From Sphaerisporangium corydalis (lineage in GTDB: Bacteria > Actinomycetota > Actinomycetes > Streptosporangiales > Streptosporangiaceae), in the NCBI RefSeq assembly GCF_025506355.1, contig NZ_JANZYP010000001.1, positions 217,932 to 281,931 of the forward strand: a stretch of 64,000 nucleotides of DNA. The letters are read 5' to 3'. This document shows, piece after piece, positions 1 to 7,570 of this stretch. The translations under genes were made by a program, and so were the position numbers. Position 1 is the stretch's first letter; each line of letters opens with the position of its first letter. Under the pieces are notes generated by a model. It had not been told where the DNA came from, searched no databases, and saw only the letters and a program-made list of their open reading frames with translations.

Positions 1-210
1 CCCGACGATCCCCGCCTCCCCGCCCTCGCCGACCGCACCAGGGACTGGTTCGCCCGGCACCACAGCGAATCCGAGACCCGCCCCGTCCACGACCCGACCA
101 TCGCCGACCTGGCCGCGCGGTCCCAGCCCGGAGCCTCGTCCCCGGCCTGGGACCGCCTCGCCCGGCTCATGAAGGGGACCGGCCTCGATCGACCGGACCC
201 CTCGGCCTGA
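1..210 (+). CDS. C-terminal end of an unidentified protein (partial)
   Basis: An open frame runs from the first base of the window to a TGA at 208-210 and encodes the last 69 residues of a protein. The segment is hydrophilic and rich in Arg, Asp and Pro, with stretches such as ALADRTRDWFARHH and a tail LDRPDPSA. It has no membrane segment and no motif I recognise. Its codon use (G or C in almost every third position) matches the neighbouring real genes. It overlaps the convergent MFS gene by 44 bp, which is long for convergent genes. Function unknown. Confidence 0.6.
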   Translation, partial: PDDPRLPALADRTRDWFARHHSESETRPVHDPTIADLAARSQPGASSPAWDRLARLMKGTGLDRPDPSA

Positions 211-1438
211 TCGAATTCCGTTCGGGCCAGGAGGGTGAGAAGCGCTCCCGCCGGAACGCGGCGGCCAGCGGGAGACCGAAGGCGATGCCGGCGGCGCCGA
301 GCGTCGCGATGGCCGTCGCCGGGGTCAGGAGCTCGGCGAGCGCCCCGCCGAAGATCATCCCGGCGCCCTGCGCGGCGATCAGGATGGATCCGGCCAGACC
401 GACCGCTCGCCCGCGCATTCCCTCGGGCACGATGCGGACGAACTCCGCGTTGATCGCGACCTGGTACGCCATGAGCGCGCCGACCAGCCCCAGCAGCACG
501 AACGAGAGGACCAGGCCCGGTCGCAGCAGGAAGCCGAGCAGCGGGACGCTGGCGAGCACGGCGAGCGGGCCGCTGTGCCGCAGCCGGGCCTCGGGGCCGG
601 CCAGGCGGCAGAACACCAGGATGCCGATCACGCTGCCGGCCGGGATGGCCGTCATGAGCAGGCCCGCGGCGGCCGGCCCGGCGCCGAGCCCCGCGGCGTA
701 CGGGACCGCGAGCGCCTCCGGCGCCAGGTAGAACCCGGCGAGCAGGGCGAGCCCGAGCAGGCTGCGCAGCCGAGGGTCTCCGAGGATCAGCCCGGCGGCG
801 CCCCCCGACCAGGGCCTCGGCCCCGCGCCGTCCGGTGGCGGGGCGGGGCGCCGGCGCAGGCCGGCGCCCACGATCAGCGCCGAGGCCAGGAACGTGCCGG
901 TGTCCACCACCAGGGCGATGTGCGGTCCCGTCAGGGCGATGGCGACCCCACCGGCCCCGAAACCGGCCAGGTTGGTGACCTGGCTGGTCATGTGACCGAA
1001 CGCCACGCCGGTGACGTAGCGATCCGCCGGCAGCAGGTCCACCGTCACGGCCATGCGGGCGGCCCTCGCCGGCGCCTCCAGCAGCTGCACGACGAACAGC
1101 AGCACGCACAGCGGCGCCAGCGGCATGCCGGGAACGGCCATCGCGGCGACGAGCACGGCCCGGCCCAGATCACACCACACCATGACCTCGCGGCGCGGAT
1201 GACGGTCGGCCAGGCCCGACAGCAGCGGGCCGCCCAGCAGGGCGGGCAGGTAGGTGAGCGCGTAGGTGAGGGCCGTCAGGGCCGCCGACGCGGTCCGGGC
1301 GTAGACGAGCACGGCCAGCGCCACCCGGGCGAGCTGGTCACCGGTCTCGGAGAGCGCCTGGGAGATCCACAGCATCCGGTACTCGCGGACCGCAAGTACC
1401 CCGAGAAACCCCCGCCGATAACGGGCCGGCACACGCAT
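167..1438 (-). CDS. MFS transporter, probable exporter
   Basis: A 423-residue membrane protein of the major facilitator superfamily, of the macrolide-efflux-like MFS_3 type. About ten to twelve hydrophobic segments are visible. The N-terminus carries REYRMLWISQALSETGDQ, and loop 2-3 holds the MFS signature GLADRHPRREVM. It should move a small molecule across the cytoplasmic membrane using the proton gradient. The start at 1438 lies downstream of a purine-rich GAGAGAAAGG. It is divergent from the small peptide ORF at 1564, sharing a 125-bp intergenic region, so it is a reasonable candidate exporter for the peptide product made there. This link is inference; a general drug efflux role is the alternative. 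Confidence 0.85.
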   Translation of the reverse strand: MRVPARYRRGFLGVLAVREYRMLWISQALSETGDQLARVALAVLVYARTASAALTALTYALTYLPALLGGPLLSGLADRHPRREVMVWCDLGRAVLVAAMAVPGMPLAPLCVLLFVVQLLEAPARAARMAVTVDLLPADRYVTGVAFGHMTSQVTNLAGFGAGGVAIALTGPHIALVVDTGTFLASALIVGAGLRRRPAPPPDGAGPRPWSGGAAGLILGDPRLRSLLGLALLAGFYLAPEALAVPYAAGLGAGPAAAGLLMTAIPAGSVIGILVFCRLAGPEARLRHSGPLAVLASVPLLGFLLRPGLVLSFVLLGLVGALMAYQVAINAEFVRIVPEGMRGRAVGLAGSILIAAQGAGMIFGGALAELLTPATAIATLGAAGIAFGLPLAAAFRRERFSPSWPERNSIRPRGPVDRGRSPS

Positions 1439-1507
1439 CGAGGTGGCCTTTCTCTCTGGGTAATAAGGTGATCGGTCCTGTTAATAAAGCGGGCGTCCCC
1501 GGAGCCT

Positions 1508-1536
1508 GGACGACATCAGTTAACCAGCTGTATTCT
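1508..1536 (+). promoter_or_regulatory. Candidate promoter of the peptide/radical-SAM operon
   Basis: A -35-like TGGACG (1508-1513) and a -10-like TATTCT (1531-1536) are separated by exactly 17 bp. Predicted transcription start is near 1543, just ahead of the ribosome binding site of the peptide ORF. Visual call only. Confidence 0.45.
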
Positions 1537-1563
1537 CACCTTGGAAAGGAGGGGATCAAATTG

Positions 1564-1644
1564 ATGAAAACGACGATTCTGCACAGCAACATTCTCGGTG
1601 GCGTCACCTGGAACCGGAACACCTCGGCCACCAGGTCTTTGTGA
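1564..1644 (+). CDS. Putative RiPP precursor peptide, 26 residues
   Basis: An ATG at 1564 follows a very strong Shine-Dalgarno run GGAAAGGAGGGG (1543-1554). The ORF encodes 26 residues and stops at 1642-1644. It begins MKTTIL, has a Leu-Gly-Gly at residues 11-13 that could be a leader/core boundary, a single Trp at 16, and a Ser/Thr/Arg/Asn-rich end TSATRSL. It has no Cys. Eighty-eight bases downstream, on the same strand, begins a B12-binding radical SAM protein of the RiPP maturation family, whose substrates are usually such short peptides. The core would be residues 14-26 if the Gly-Gly is the cleavage site. I do not recognise the peptide family. Whether it is translated and modified is inference from the ribosome binding site and context. 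Confidence 0.65.
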   Translation: MKTTILHSNILGGVTWNRNTSATRSL

Positions 1645-1659
1645 CGTAAGTACGCCGAT

Positions 1660-1675
1660 CGGCGGTGAGCCGCCG
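1660..1675 (+). promoter_or_regulatory. Stem-loop between peptide ORF and radical SAM gene
   Basis: CGGCGG, loop TGAG, CCGCCG forms a perfect 6-bp GC hairpin 15 bases after the peptide stop codon. There is no T-run, so it could be a partial terminator or an mRNA-stabilising structure. Either would yield more peptide than maturase, the usual stoichiometry in RiPP operons. Confidence 0.4.
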
Positions 1676-1732
1676 AAACTCCCGCCGCCCCCCGCGGCGT
1701 ACCGGACCGACGGCTCACACCCGGGAGCGATA

Positions 1733-3601
1733 ATGCGGTTGATCCTAGCCTCGATGCCCTGGGCCGACCTGCACAGTCCCTCGCCCGCCATGGGAATCCT
1801 CGGCGCCAGGACACGCGCGGCCCGCCCGGGCACCGAGGTCACCGAATATCACGGCGCCATCCGCTGGGCCGAATATCTGCTCGCCGCCACCAATGGCGAA
1901 CTCACGCCGGAGGATTACGCGCGCATCGCGGACGACGCGCCGAGCGGACTCGGTGAATGGATCTTCGCGGGCGCTCTGAACGGCCGGCCTGAATGGCGGC
2001 TGAAAGAACTCAGGAGCGGCGTCGTACGGCAGTCGGACGCGGAAATCGACGTGGCGGTCAGAATGCGCCGGCTGGCCGATGGATTCGTCGAACAGGCGGT
2101 CGCCGAATTACTCGCCACGGCCCCCGACGTCGTCGGTTTCACCACGACCTTCCAGCAGAACACCTCCTCCCTGGCCGTCGCCGGACGGCTGAAGCAGGTG
2201 CGGCCGTCGACCCGCGTGGTGCTGGGCGGCGCCAACTGCGAGGGACCGATGGGCGCGGCGCTGCACCGTAACCACCCCTTCGTGGACTTCGTCGTGCGCG
2301 GTGAGGGCGAGCTCGTCTTCCCGAGGCTGCTCGACCGCATCGCCGCCGACCAGGACGCCGCCGGTCTGGAGGGCGTCTGCTGGTGGCGGGACGAGCGGTC
2401 GATCGCCAACCCGGAGTCCCCGAGCCCCGTCCCGGTGGAGGTGATCCCCGTCCCCGACTACGACCAGTGGCAGCGGGTCATCGAGGCGTCGCCGGTGCTG
2501 AGCTACGGCTCGCCCTGCCTGCTGATCGAGGCCTCCCGAGGCTGCTGGTGGGGCGAGCGCCACCACTGCACCTTCTGCGGCCTCAACGACGCGATGATCA
2601 AATTCCGCAGCAAGCCCCCGGACCGGCTCTGGGCGGAGCTTTCCGGCCTGGTGCGGCGCCATCAGATCCTCGACGTCTTCTTCACCGACAACATCCTGGA
2701 CCTGGCCTACTACGACGAGGTGCTCCCCCTGGTGGCCGCAAGCGGCTGGGACCTGCGGATCTTCTTCGAGGTCAAGTCGAACATGCGCCCGGGGCAGCTC
2801 GAACGGCTGGCGGCGGCCGGCGTCGTGGAGTTGCAGCCCGGCATCGAGAGCCTGTCGAGCCGGGTGCTCAAGCTCATGGACAAGGGGGTGACGGCGACGG
2901 CGAACCTCCGGCTCCTGCGCGACAGCGAGGCCCTGTCCATCACCGTGACGTGGAACTACCTGTACGGCTTCCCCGAGGAGCGCGCGGAGGACTACCTGCA
3001 GGTCATCGCCCAGCTGCCCGCGCTCGTGCACCTGCAGCCGCCCCGGGCGGTGGCCCGCGTCGCACTGGAACGGTTCAGCCCGTTCTTCGAGCGCCCCGAG
3101 CTGGGGTTCGCTACCCGCAGCCCCAAGCCGTTCTACGGCCTGGTGTACGACCTGCCGGAGGCCGAACTCGGCGATTTGGCCTACTACTTCGACTGCGAGG
3201 AGGCGGGGATCACCGGGGACCCGGAGCGCACGCTGCACGAGGCGGTCGGGCGGTGGCAGCGCGCGCACCCCGACTCCACCCTCGTCGTCAGCGAGAACCC
3301 CGGCGGGTCCCTGCTCATCGCCGACCGGCGGCAGGGCTGGCCCGTCCGTGACCACGTCCTGACGGGCTGGCACGCGGCGGCCTACCGCGCCCTGGAGCGG
3401 GGCCGCTCGGCGAAGGCGCTCACCGACCGTCTCACCGGGGACGACGGCTACGCGGTCGACCCGGGCACGGTCTCCGCGTGGCTGGAGACCGCTCACCGCG
3501 ACGGCCTGACCTACGACGACGACGGCACCTTCGTCGCCCTGGCCACCCGCGGCGTCCCCCTGCGCGCCTACGCCCGCCCCGACGCCGTGGAGGTGCGATG
3601 A
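1733..3601 (+). CDS. B12-binding radical SAM RiPP maturation protein
   Basis: This 622-residue protein has an N-terminal cobalamin-binding (Rossmann-like) region with DVVGFTTTFQQN and VVLGGANCEGPMG. A radical SAM domain follows. Its cluster motif is the CX7CX2C form GCWWGERHHCTFCGLN, with cysteines at residues 271, 279 and 282, instead of the commoner CX3CX2C. This spacing, preceded by IEASR, is characteristic of the RiPP maturation radical SAM protein 1 family (B12-dependent C-methyltransferase-like). The start at 1733 follows GGGAG with 5-nt spacing and begins MRLILASMPW, the usual first strand; longer readings upstream add only low-complexity Pro/Gly sequence. It ends in ATGA, overlapping the next gene. 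Likely role: C-methylation or another radical modification of the peptide encoded at 1564. Confidence 0.9.
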   Translation: MRLILASMPWADLHSPSPAMGILGARTRAARPGTEVTEYHGAIRWAEYLLAATNGELTPEDYARIADDAPSGLGEWIFAGALNGRPEWRLKELRSGVVRQSDAEIDVAVRMRRLADGFVEQAVAELLATAPDVVGFTTTFQQNTSSLAVAGRLKQVRPSTRVVLGGANCEGPMGAALHRNHPFVDFVVRGEGELVFPRLLDRIAADQDAAGLEGVCWWRDERSIANPESPSPVPVEVIPVPDYDQWQRVIEASPVLSYGSPCLLIEASRGCWWGERHHCTFCGLNDAMIKFRSKPPDRLWAELSGLVRRHQILDVFFTDNILDLAYYDEVLPLVAASGWDLRIFFEVKSNMRPGQLERLAAAGVVELQPGIESLSSRVLKLMDKGVTATANLRLLRDSEALSITVTWNYLYGFPEERAEDYLQVIAQLPALVHLQPPRAVARVALERFSPFFERPELGFATRSPKPFYGLVYDLPEAELGDLAYYFDCEEAGITGDPERTLHEAVGRWQRAHPDSTLVVSENPGGSLLIADRRQGWPVRDHVLTGWHAAAYRALERGRSAKALTDRLTGDDGYAVDPGTVSAWLETAHRDGLTYDDDGTFVALATRGVPLRAYARPDAVEVR

Positions 3602-4113
3602 TCGAGGTCGAGCGGCCGGTACGGCTGGACGCCGCCGACGGGCAGGCCACCAGCCGCTTCGTGGCCTGGTTGCGGGACCGGCTGTCGGAGGGCCTGGCCG
3701 TGGCCTGGCGGGCGAGCCTCGATCCACGGCTGGACGCCTCACCGTTGTACCACCTCCCCCCGCCGCTGCCCGAGGGCCCCGGCGAGCAGGACCCGGCGCT
3801 GGTCCGCTGGCGGGCGAGCTACCGCCCAGGGGTCTGCTTCTACCGCGTCGGCCCCGGCTTCATCCAGGTGAAAGACCTCCGCGGACCGGGGGGACCGTCC
3901 CGGTACACACTCACCCAGGACCCCTACCTCAGCCTGTTCACCCGGTGCCTGACCCCCACGCTCCTGACGGACCTCACCGAGGACGCCCGCCGGATCGCCG
4001 ACGCGCTGCTCGCCGAACGCCTGCTGATCGCCGTCGGCGCGCCCGGGGACCGATGGGTCACCACGCTGCCCTCGCGCATGCGCCGCTGGCCGGTGCCCAG
4101 CTACCTCATCTGA
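3598..4113 (+). CDS. DUF5825 family protein, RiPP-associated
   Basis: A soluble 171-residue protein beginning MIEVERPVRL, translationally coupled to the radical SAM gene by a 4-bp ATGA overlap. It contains an Arg/Trp-rich central part (VRWRASYRPGVCFYRVGPGF) and ends WPVPSYLI. I assign it to DUF5825, a family repeatedly seen next to this type of radical SAM enzyme in actinobacteria; that association is from memory. It has no catalytic motif I can name. A peptide-recognition or partner role is plausible but unproven. The hairpin immediately after its stop suggests it is the last gene of the operon. Confidence 0.7.
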   Translation: MIEVERPVRLDAADGQATSRFVAWLRDRLSEGLAVAWRASLDPRLDASPLYHLPPPLPEGPGEQDPALVRWRASYRPGVCFYRVGPGFIQVKDLRGPGGPSRYTLTQDPYLSLFTRCLTPTLLTDLTEDARRIADALLAERLLIAVGAPGDRWVTTLPSRMRRWPVPSYLI

Positions 4114-4116
4114 ACC

Positions 4117-4134
4117 GGACGGCGCCGGCCGTCC
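4117..4134 (+). terminator. Hairpin terminator after DUF5825 gene
   Basis: GGACGGC, loop GCCG, GCCGTCC is a perfect 7-bp GC stem starting 3 bases after the DUF5825 stop codon. It lacks a U-tract, as is common in actinomycetes. It separates the RiPP operon from the hydrolase at 4369. Confidence 0.55.
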
Positions 4135-4368
4135 ACGGCGCCGTCGACATCCGCCACCACCCCTGCCGCCCTGGAACGCTCGGTCGGTCCGGAGGCTCGG
4201 CCGCTCCCGTAGGTGGCCGTGTTAGGCCAGGTCAGCGGCCGGGTAGGGCCCCGTGCGCGATCACCGCGAGGGGCGGCCCGGCTCCGGTCCCGCGATCCGC
4301 CGCGAAACCCGGCTCGCTCCCGCGCGAGGGCCGGGCTCCGTCCGCTGAGTGGAATCCGGGGGTTCGTC

Positions 4369-5235
4369 ATGGTTCCCGTGCGTCACTTGACCGCGACCGT
4401 CGAAGGGCGGCGCGTCTTCTACCGCGAGGCGGGCCCCCGCGAGGCCCCGGTCGTCGTGCTGCTGCACGGCTTCCCCACCAGCTCGCACATGTTCCGCCAC
4501 GTCATCCCCGCCCTGGCCGACCGGTATCACGTCATCGCGCCCGACCACATCGGCTTCGGCCGGTCCGACGCCCCGGCCGCGCGCGAGTTCCCGTACACCT
4601 TCGACGCGCTCGCCGACGTCACCGCCGGGCTCCTGGACCGGCTCGGCGCCGGCGCGTACGCGATGTACGTCCAGGACTACGGCGCCCCCATCGGCTGGCG
4701 CCTGGCCACCCGATCCCCCGGCTCGGTGACCGCGATCATCTCCCAGAACGGCAACGCCTACACCGAGGGGTTCGTCGACGCCTTCTGGAGCGGCCTGTTC
4801 GCCTACGCCGCCGCGCCGGGCCCGGACACCGAGCCTCCCGTGCGGCAGGCACTGACCCCGGCCGTGACGCGCTGGCAGTACCTCCACGGCGTGCCCGACG
4901 AGAGCCTGGTCAGCCCGGACACCTGGACCCACGACCAGGCGCTCCTCGACCGTCCGGGCAACGACGAGATCCAGCTCGCGCTATTCCGCGACTATCCCGC
5001 CAACGTGGAGCTCTACCCCGCCGTGCAGGAGTACTTCCGCACCTCGGGGGTGCCGCTTCTGGCGGTGTGGGGGGCCAACGACGAGATCTTCGGTCCCGAG
5101 GGCGCCCGCGCCTTCCTGCGGGACCTTCCCCGCGCCGAGGTCCACCTGCTCGACACCGGCCACTTCGCCCTGGAAAGCCACCTGGACGCCATCACCGGCT
5201 ACATCCGCGGCTTCCTCGGCCGGGTCCTGCGCTGA
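4369..5235 (+). CDS. Alpha/beta hydrolase, haloalkane dehalogenase/epoxide hydrolase type
   Basis: A 288-residue alpha/beta-hydrolase. The oxyanion motif LLHGFPTSS follows a first strand beginning near residue 20. The nucleophile elbow reads YVQDYGAP with Asp at residue 103 in place of Ser, as in haloalkane dehalogenases and epoxide hydrolases. The catalytic His lies in LDTGHFALESH near the C-terminus, and an acidic residue is available in WGANDEIF. The start at 4369 follows a GGGGG ribosome site; upstream in-frame sequence is Arg/Pro-rich noise. It is preceded by 255 bp of non-coding sequence holding the terminator of the RiPP operon, so it is probably its own unit. Substrate unknown. Confidence 0.85.
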   Translation: MVPVRHLTATVEGRRVFYREAGPREAPVVVLLHGFPTSSHMFRHVIPALADRYHVIAPDHIGFGRSDAPAAREFPYTFDALADVTAGLLDRLGAGAYAMYVQDYGAPIGWRLATRSPGSVTAIISQNGNAYTEGFVDAFWSGLFAYAAAPGPDTEPPVRQALTPAVTRWQYLHGVPDESLVSPDTWTHDQALLDRPGNDEIQLALFRDYPANVELYPAVQEYFRTSGVPLLAVWGANDEIFGPEGARAFLRDLPRAEVHLLDTGHFALESHLDAITGYIRGFLGRVLR

Positions 5236-6152: not shown

Positions 6153-6854
6153 TCAGGTGAAGACGGCGCCGGTGTAGGGCTCGGTGAGCAGGGCGTCGAG
6201 GGCGCGGAGGCCGCGCCAGGCCTTGGTCATGCCGAACTGTGCGGCGAACCGCACGACGGCGCGCACGTCCCCGGGTGTGGCGCCGGCGCCGAGCGCGCGG
6301 GTGACGTGGATGCGGAAGCTCTCCTCCAGGGTCTGGTAGAGCACGTCGACGGTCATCGTGGCGAAGGCGCGCTCGCGCACGCTCAGCCGCGTCATGCCGG
6401 CGCGCATGCGGGACTGCAGGTCCATGTAGTCGGCGAACCCGGCGTCCAGGCCGCGCATGGCGCCGCGGACCGGCCCGGGGATCGGGCTTCCCGAGCCGCC
6501 GGCGTTCACCTCGTGGCCGGGTTCCGCCGGGCCCGGCAGGCCGTGCTCGCGTTCGATGGCGGTCAGGCGATCCAGTGCGGCCAGCGCGGCGGGGTACCCG
6601 CTGTCGTAGGAGACGAAGCGGAGCATCTCCCGCAGGTCGTCGGCGGTCAGGCCGTGGTCCAGGCCCATCGTCACGTGGAGCTCGAAGGGCAGCCCGAGGG
6701 TCTGCTGGCAGACGTCGGCGACCAGGCACAGCAGGATCTTCTCCCGGGTCGTCAGCTCGGGGATCCCCTCCCACAGGTGCCGGTCGCCGGCGGCGTTCAT
6801 CTCGGCGAACACCGGGTCCAGCGCCTTCACCCTGGTCTCGGACGGAACGTGCAT
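6153..6854 (-). CDS. Carboxymuconolactone decarboxylase-like protein, two CMD domains
   Basis: A 233-residue cytoplasmic protein built from two CMD/AhpD-like helical repeats. The first is around TTREKILLCLVADVCQQTLG and the second around VRERAFATMTVDVLYQ. Each is followed by a LPFELHV or SFRIHVT segment typical of the fold. The redox CxxC of AhpD is absent, so a peroxidase role is unlikely; a gamma-carboxymuconolactone decarboxylase-like lyase role is more consistent. The start at 6854 is chosen because GGAGG lies 8-9 bp upstream. It is divergent from a TetR gene with a double palindromic operator between them, suggesting it is that repressor's target. Confidence 0.8.
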   Translation of the reverse strand: MHVPSETRVKALDPVFAEMNAAGDRHLWEGIPELTTREKILLCLVADVCQQTLGLPFELHVTMGLDHGLTADDLREMLRFVSYDSGYPAALAALDRLTAIEREHGLPGPAEPGHEVNAGGSGSPIPGPVRGAMRGLDAGFADYMDLQSRMRAGMTRLSVRERAFATMTVDVLYQTLEESFRIHVTRALGAGATPGDVRAVVRFAAQFGMTKAWRGLRALDALLTEPYTGAVFT

Positions 6855-6880
6855 GGCGGCGCCTCCATAATTGAACGGCT

Positions 6881-6904
6881 GTAGCGCTACGACTGTAGCG
6901 CTAT
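6881..6904. promoter_or_regulatory. Double palindromic operator between CMD and TetR genes
   Basis: GTAGCGCTAC (6881-6890) is a perfect 10-bp palindrome. A second copy, GTAGCGCTAT (6895-6904), follows with centres 14 bp apart. TGTAGCGCTA is repeated exactly in both. Placed between divergent starts, this is the expected operator of the TetR protein. Confidence 0.7.
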
Positions 6905-6919
6905 GGGTGTGCCAATACA

Positions 6920-7570
6920 ATGCGGTCCATGGACGTGACCTCCCCGGGCCGGGGCCGCAACCCGCGCGGCCAGGGCGAACGGCTGCGCCAGGAGATCGTC
7001 TCCGCCGCGCTGCGGCTGCTCGACGAGCTGGCCGACGACCAGGCCCTGTCGCTGCGCGCGGTGGCGCGGGAGATCGGCATCGCCGCGACCTCGGTCTACA
7101 TCCACTTCGCCGACCGTGACGCCCTGGTGCTCGCCGCCCTGGAACGCTGCCACCAGGACCTGCTCCAGGCCGTCGACCGGGCCGAGGCCGCCTCCGCCGA
7201 TCCGGTGGCCAAGCTGCGCGCCCGCACGCTGCTGATCGGCACCTGGGCCCACCAGCACCCCGGCCTGTACAAGGTGCTCCACGAGAGCACCCTCAACCAG
7301 CGTGAGGACATGTCGTTCAAGCAGGCGCTGGCCGACCGCACCACCGCCGCCGTCCAGCGGTGCATGGACGCCGGGGCCGCGCCGCCCGGCGACGCCGCGA
7401 CGGTCTCGTTCGACCTGAGGATGGCCGTGCACGGCACCGTGTCGCAGCGCGTCAACCACCCGAACCTCACCTGGCCGCCGCTGGAGGAGCAGATCGACCG
7501 CTACCTCACCAAGCTCGTCGGCGTCCCGCCCGCGTCGTTCCCCGAGCGCGCGGGTCCCGGCGGGCCGTGA
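6920..7570 (+). CDS. TetR family transcriptional regulator
   Basis: A 216-residue repressor. The N-terminal helix-turn-helix is standard: RQEIVSAALRLLDEL, then LSLRAVAREIGIAATSVYIHF, then a long ligand-binding region with VHGTVSQRVNHPNLTWPP near residue 180. An ATG at 6920 and another at 6929 (MDVTSPG) are both possible starts. Divergently transcribed from the CMD-like gene with two operator boxes in the 65-bp gap, it most likely represses that gene and itself. The effector is unknown, perhaps the CMD protein's aromatic substrate. The molybdenum hydroxylase genes follow 180 bp downstream on the same strand and could also be under its control. Confidence 0.85.
   Translation: MRSMDVTSPGRGRNPRGQGERLRQEIVSAALRLLDELADDQALSLRAVAREIGIAATSVYIHFADRDALVLAALERCHQDLLQAVDRAEAASADPVAKLRARTLLIGTWAHQHPGLYKVLHESTLNQREDMSFKQALADRTTAAVQRCMDAGAAPPGDAATVSFDLRMAVHGTVSQRVNHPNLTWPPLEEQIDRYLTKLVGVPPASFPERAGPGGP

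Follow-up and report, generated by a model that had tools for sequence, protein, structure and literature searches.

A very likely minimal RiPP locus of the clavusporin kind, with a B12-dependent radical SAM maturase and a DUF5825 protein, in Sphaerisporangium corydalis

The window analyzed here is a stretch of 64,000 nucleotides from the Sphaerisporangium corydalis genome (contig NZ_JANZYP010000001.1, positions 217,932 to 281,931 of the forward strand), and all feature coordinates below are positions in this window. It very likely contains a real minimal locus for a ribosomally synthesized and post-translationally modified peptide (RiPP), which is of the clavusporin kind, has a different peptide and lacks a linked prolyl oligopeptidase. 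On the forward strand, a 26-codon open reading frame (ORF, 1564..1644) precedes the gene of a B12-dependent radical S-adenosylmethionine (SAM) maturase (1733..3601), which is followed by the gene of a DUF5825 protein (3598..4113). The gene of a major facilitator superfamily (MFS) transporter, the likely exporter, is divergent (167..1438, reverse strand; MFS_1 and MFS_3 in Pfam). The best overall explanation, and a likely one, is a minimal B12-dependent radical SAM/DUF5825 RiPP cluster working by the mechanism proposed below.

The identity of the two enzyme genes is clear from profile searches. The maturase matches TIGR03975 (rSAM_ocin_1) at 570 bits, against a curated cut-off of 282 bits, and its B12-binding (PF02310) and Radical_SAM (PF04055) domains are both above the Pfam cut-off. 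The CX7CX2C iron–sulphur motif (Cys 271, 279 and 282) is located at 2543..2578 on the forward strand. The AlphaFold model of this protein has a confidence of 87.5 and resembles the structures of OxsB, TsrM, TokK and CysS. The product of the next gene matches PF19142 (DUF5825) at 88 bits against a cut-off of 25, and its start codon overlaps the maturase stop codon in an ATGA. Thus, the enzyme assignments, the overlap and the divergent MFS gene of the original prediction all agree with Pfam and the coordinates.

The ORF at 1564..1644 is translated as MKTTILHSNILGGVTWNRNTSATRSL. As predicted, this peptide has no Cys, a single Trp and LGG at residues 11–13; it also has no Pro. No NCBIfam or Pfam family was matched by it, including the Nif11 and nitrile-hydratase leaders whose absence had been claimed, and a query of 26 residues gives such searches little power. 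Its Shine–Dalgarno sequence, AAAGGAGGGG, lies at 1545..1554 on the forward strand. Among the 1612 starts of short ORFs (15–90 codons, both strands) in the window, AAGGAGG occurs at the position of the ribosome-binding site (RBS) for only three, and two of these are the ATG at 1564 and the in-frame TTG at 1561, which would give a peptide of 27 residues. The claim of one of the best RBSs in the window was therefore correct. G or C occupies codon positions 1, 2 and 3 of the ORF in 8, 14 and 21 of 26 cases (P = 0.006 for position 3), and a high value at position 3 is typical of coding frames when the genome is GC-rich. The 700 bp directly before the maturase contain no further short ORF with a recognized RBS. 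A longer ORF in the same frame (1468–1644, 58 aa, GTG start) is disfavored, since the RBS and the starts of homologous ORFs indicate 1561 or 1564.

The gap between this ORF and the maturase gene contains a stable RNA hairpin (1653..1729, forward strand; z −2.05), and folds as good were obtained in 5 of 200 shuffles. The gap is 88 bp long both in the window and in the related locus L087, and 92 bp long in L090. Folding covered these three gaps, and each gave a stable structure (z −2.05, −2.87 and −2.60, respectively). This suggests a device that holds the level of the peptide above that of the enzymes. Position, RBS, codon GC bias and gap hairpin all agree with a precursor; the weak sequence match is considered below.

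Relatives of the maturase were collected from a contig scan, which gave 49 loci, and from three whole-genome searches with matches in the family of the window (61 of 341 genomes, E 1e-60), in genomes sampled from the class (15 of 394, E 1e-120) and in genomes sampled from the Streptomyces family (17 of 394, E 1e-165); the first two counts include the genome of the window itself. The loci counted are the best 30 or fewer matches per genome search, and weaker matches in the family of the window lie outside the counts. Orienting and deduplication left 111 maturase loci, 109 of them usable; plasmid loci found later are not included. A leader model was made from 20 hand-picked leaders of 10 residues from these loci, with the window peptide excluded. 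At a threshold of 8.4 bits, it matches 52 other loci, among them the 20 seeds themselves and many close copies of seeds.

The original prediction had proposed looking for a conserved peptide upstream of DUF5825-linked maturases, and had named the lack of one as grounds for a chance ORF; a common leader is present there in many loci, so this condition does not refute the reading. A leader ORF was found upstream in 51 of the 87 other DUF5825-linked loci, a count that is partly by construction since the seed leaders were drawn from 20 of these loci, versus 1 of the 21 loci without DUF5825. The sole leader-bearing locus of the latter group, L131, is the sister of a DUF5825-linked locus in the tree, and two further members, L032 and L046, show weak DUF5825-like matches (20–27 bits), for which the C-terminal part of the maturase itself may account. 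Examples of the leader are MKKTTVHNDP.., MKRRSVQNDP.., MQKDIIHNDP.., MEIKKVVVRED.. and MKRKVIRKQQ... The precursors are 18–55 residues long and lie 2–140 bp from the maturase gene. Thus, a leader of about ten residues is common to many loci, with cores wholly unlike each other between clades.

Whether the window peptide belongs to this leader family is a separate matter; upstream of the window maturase, position and RBS fit, while the sequence match is marginal. In the FastTree phylogeny, the maturase clusters with those of L087, L090 and L093 (support 96). The nearest peptides, MKIKKTAIRSQSQKAPRIYTWQKHSASSK in L087 and VIIKKVAIRSQSVSAPKMGWQKKN in L090, have Trp followed by Q-K, and the window peptide has W-N-R. 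LGG, part of the pattern that the original prediction had proposed to align for, is no family signature: it is absent from both of these peptides, and IGG occurs in some more distant ones (L008, L014). The seed leader model ranks the window ORF 7th (TTG start) or 16th (ATG start) among the 1612 starts, and a retrained model ranks it 6th or 7th. The score of the peptide against the 52 relatives was attained by 32 of 1500 shuffles for the best match and 4 of 1500 for the mean; against L087 alone it was attained by 141 of 20,000 shuffles, and against L087 and L090 jointly by 435 of 20,000.

Several observations weigh against the ORF being a member of this family, or against the locus being read in this way. 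The window peptide matches the conserved leader weakly: with the TTG start, it receives 4.6 bits, close to noise (L045, 4.5 bits), and six of the 1612 window starts outscore it under the seed model. Against L090 alone, its score does not reach significance (4262 of 20,000 shuffles, p 0.21), and the L093 sequence does not align with it (score 1.0). In pairwise comparison, it ranks 24–27 by best and 68–102 by mean score among 617 window ORFs, and 5–8 among 321 window ORFs against L087 and L090. More generally, a leader hit is missing in 36 of 88 DUF5825-linked loci; no convincing conserved peptide was found in L088, L089 and L091, which have a divergent MFS gene, either in the gap or after the maturase; and the sets searched contained no close relative, the top maturase identity being 58%.

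An alternative is that the 26-codon ORF arose by chance or serves in regulation as a short leader ORF (a translational attenuator), with the real precursor elsewhere, as may be the case in L088, L089 and L091. The weak match of the peptide and the absence of a recognizable peptide in the relatives with a divergent MFS gene speak for this explanation, as does the conserved short ORF that in some relatives (L100, L104 and L070) lies behind DUF5825 instead. It is opposed by the RBS, the GC bias at codon position 3, the spacing identical to that of L087, the shared K-x-T-x-I and Trp features, and the lack of a rival RBS-bearing short ORF in the 700 bp before the maturase. We consider this alternative unlikely, and the ORF at 1564–1644 quite probably encodes the precursor. 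The original idea of a minimal RiPP locus, made up of a peptide with a very short leader, a B12-dependent radical SAM maturase, DUF5825 and an MFS gene, is supported; the leader length of 13 residues given there was a guess.

The C-terminal part of the maturase deserves separate consideration. Judged from profile comparison, it is a PqqD-like (RiPP recognition element-like) domain comprising residues ~519–593 (3287..3511, forward strand); in the model, this region has three strands, three helices and two strands. Its alignment with the PqqD profile spans 71 columns and gives E 2.4e-8, or 1e-8 without the row of L161, which carries a stop. Among 13 control slices of the maturase, 11 had E 0.0068 or higher, and the two overlapping the C-terminus gave 5.6e-5 and 2.7e-7; the best of 40 shuffles was 0.051. 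A limited literature search found no published mention of a PqqD-like domain in the TIGR03975 family.

The same domain is homologous to residues 65–159 of the DUF5825 protein (3790..4074, forward strand), whose AlphaFold model has a confidence of 92.5. Comparison of the two alignments gave E 4.3e-7 with 24 rows each, and 4.7e-6 under other settings, where the maturase slices 321–463 and 361–503 also matched DUF5825 at 2.7e-4 and 3.1e-4 and the best of 20 shuffles was 0.0099. With 84 and 87 rows given, E was 6e-9, and the best of 20 shuffles was 0.13. Of four maturase C-termini searched in Pfam, that of L027 matched DUF5825 at E 3e-4, under the cut-off, and the other three gave no match. Direct comparison of DUF5825 with PqqD was not significant (E 0.019–0.023 over 13–15 columns; best of 40 shuffles 0.065). 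A Foldseek search of DUF5825 against PDB found nothing below E 0.1, with only weaker matches to winged-helix regulators, and sequence searches against solved structures returned nothing convincing for either DUF5825 or the maturase C-terminal domain. At the level of sequence profiles, then, DUF5825 is a relative of the PqqD-like domain of the maturase, and its tie to PqqD passes only through that domain.

The mechanism that we infer for the window cluster runs from translation of the precursor through leader binding, methylation at a particular site and cleavage to export. The strong RBS would cause the precursor ORF to be translated in excess over the enzymes, and the stable gap hairpin would partly cover the RBS of the maturase. 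The first ~10 residues (K-T-T-I-L-H-S) would act as the leader, which may be bound by the C-terminal PqqD-like domain of the maturase, by the related DUF5825 fold, or by both. With methylcobalamin and SAM, the maturase would then modify the core, and C-methylation is the most likely reaction. Because a Trp–amide–basic residue pattern recurs in the two nearest peptides, the Trp region (T-W-N-R-N) is the best candidate for the modified site. Trimming would fall to some protease, and export of the product to the divergent MFS protein.

The maturase might instead make another radical change on the core, such as a crosslink or an epimerization. There is a precedent in PbsB, the B12-dependent radical SAM enzyme of a biphenomycin-like cluster, which, according to PMC12257519, crosslinks ortho-tyrosines. 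The same source reports that a radical SAM enzyme paired with DUF5825 C-methylates, TIGR03975 is named as a RiPP maturation C-methyltransferase, and the single Trp of the window peptide has no aryl–aryl partner except His7. A change other than methylation thus appears rather improbable, and C-methylation remains the preferred reaction.

The wider pattern, in which one tiny leader serves many cores and DUF5825 is kin to a PqqD-like domain, is the more interesting result. Tentatively, and with somewhat less than even confidence, we suggest a large, hardly described actinobacterial RiPP group with a common leader of about ten residues (in precursors of 18–55 residues) and unrelated cores. This leader would be read by the C-terminal PqqD-like domain of the B12-dependent radical SAM enzyme itself and by DUF5825, a duplicate of that domain, and the window variant would modify a Trp-containing hydrophilic core without a dedicated protease. 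A ten-residue leader with unrelated cores is the kind of short tag sought by peptide engineers, and it could direct C-methylation of unactivated carbons. The domain kinship turns DUF5825, a domain of unknown function, into a testable proposal, namely that it arose by duplication and binds the leader or the enzyme. Direct synthesis and testing are within reach for the window peptide and for the 18-residue peptides of Actinomadura, given their small size.

Other loci of the collection differ in their short ORFs. In L024, L027, L028, L029 and L030 (Actinomadura), the 18-residue precursor M/VKRKxIRKQQxASQRHEF, encoded upstream of the maturase, is near-identical in five species. The L092 locus (genome G199) has an ORF at −277 to −79 relative to the maturase start that encodes a repetitive sequence, MPVDKVVLKSAAPQSSE followed by six PMIRSAAT-like units, and is probably a multi-core precursor with a Pro at every joint; its sister locus L122/L139 contains a repeat ORF of the VRVASSP type. 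L098 has two tandem paralogous short ORFs (VSSS...ADEWRPS...) with RBSs, at positions −391 and −223 as counted from the maturase. In L100, L104 and L070, a conserved ORF of ~58 residues (..NLATTEGIRVDVVRDDIDAPHERDWGI.) is found behind DUF5825, ~2.5 kb after the maturase start; these loci have no upstream leader ORF, and this is possibly another precursor type.

As for the surroundings of the window cluster, a hairpin predicted after DUF5825 is present at 4118..4145 (forward strand) with a 10-bp stem and is a possible operon end; it has no T-tail, and the 91-nt fold does not surpass shuffles (z 0.07). Neither a sigma-70-type promoter nor a T-tailed terminator was found in 1400–4300. The ten Pfam-checked neighbors on both sides are an alpha/beta hydrolase, an inositol-phosphatase, CMD, TetR, molybdopterin-binding, MFS, periplasmic-binding and MerR proteins and two proteins of the beta-lactamase family. 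The original prediction that no protease is present stands insofar as prolyl oligopeptidase, multinuclear non-heme iron-dependent oxidative enzymes (MNIOs) and other known RiPP enzymes are absent among these ten, and insofar as a tblastn search covering the initial 12 kb of the window and 13 kb on its left side found no prolyl oligopeptidase; it does not extend to serine hydrolases, which flank the cluster. Possible candidate proteases are the alpha/beta hydrolase at 4369–5235, downstream of DUF5825, and the two beta-lactamase-family serine hydrolases left of the MFS gene (L191 7701–12345, left of the window). Prolyl-oligopeptidase homologues occur only elsewhere in the same genome; one (37%) is encoded far from the window (G000:C115:29853-31691), with one TAG within the match. 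In a tblastn survey of 90 loci of at least 7 kb (duplicates present), 15 had an oligopeptidase and 32 an MFS gene; Pfam confirmed all nine ORFs of relatives picked as likely MFS genes, including some that tblastn had not detected.

Clavusporins are reportedly hydrophobic, multiply C-methylated, surface-active peptides. According to PMC12257519, they are C-methylated by a pair of a B12-dependent radical SAM enzyme and DUF5825, and according to PMC12951456, the prolyl oligopeptidase MpcP is involved in the removal of their leader. The Streptomyces clavuligerus plasmid NZ_CP065235.1 (L157) encodes, in a row, MFS, a prolyl oligopeptidase (Peptidase_S9 in Pfam), a precursor, a maturase and DUF5825; the species name, together with the presence of DUF5825 and of a prolyl oligopeptidase, leads us to take it as the clavusporin (mpc-type) locus. 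Its probable precursor ORF, MQKDVIHNDPLAGDEENRKPSVGITITVPFRNAEDADED (6812–6931), is missing from the PLSDB gene table and begins before the oligopeptidase gene ends. The window cluster shares with L157 a short precursor just before a TIGR03975 B12-dependent radical SAM enzyme, then DUF5825, and an MFS gene, and the leader starts, MQKDVIHNDPL in L157 and MKTTILHSNIL in the window, have similar His and Leu spacing. The possibly new class of the original prediction is not upheld: the enzyme pair is that of clavusporins, and all parts recur at the S. clavuligerus locus, which adds a prolyl oligopeptidase. Only L157 has this oligopeptidase and a hydrophobic core after Pro, neither of which was found in the window flanks and peptide searched; in addition, the MFS gene of the window is divergent, and the maturases are 43% identical and lie on different branches of the FastTree phylogeny.

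That the cluster is a true clavusporin orthologue whose protease was lost is very improbable: the gene set is equal except for the prolyl oligopeptidase, and the top pairwise match of the window peptide is to precursors of the L111/L112 type (ungapped over 18–21 residues, scores 34 and 31), but the maturase is outside the clade with such MQKD..NDP precursors (FastTree only) at 43% identity to the S. clavuligerus enzyme, and the peptide has neither a Pro for a prolyl oligopeptidase nor a hydrophobic ITITVPF-like core.

The nearest maturases by tree path, those of the same-family relatives L087 and L090 (55–56%), have the order precursor, radical SAM enzyme and DUF5825, as in the window. They differ in the leader, IKK-T/V-A-I-R-S-Q-S, and in an Ala-Pro ahead of the Trp segment; unlike the window, neither has an adjacent MFS gene by tblastn (the L087 contig is just 7.7 kb). 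Proteusin and Nif11-type ‘ocin’ precursors pair with TIGR03975 enzymes. Their maturase family is that of the window, but the window peptide shows no match to such leaders. Biphenomycin-like clusters (YHxYxY precursors) have, according to PMC12257519, a second B12-dependent radical SAM enzyme with DUF5825; they also carry an MNIO and its partner, none of which is among the ten Pfam-checked neighbors of the window cluster. The enzyme pair is thus already known from clavusporins, and the window peptide is new.

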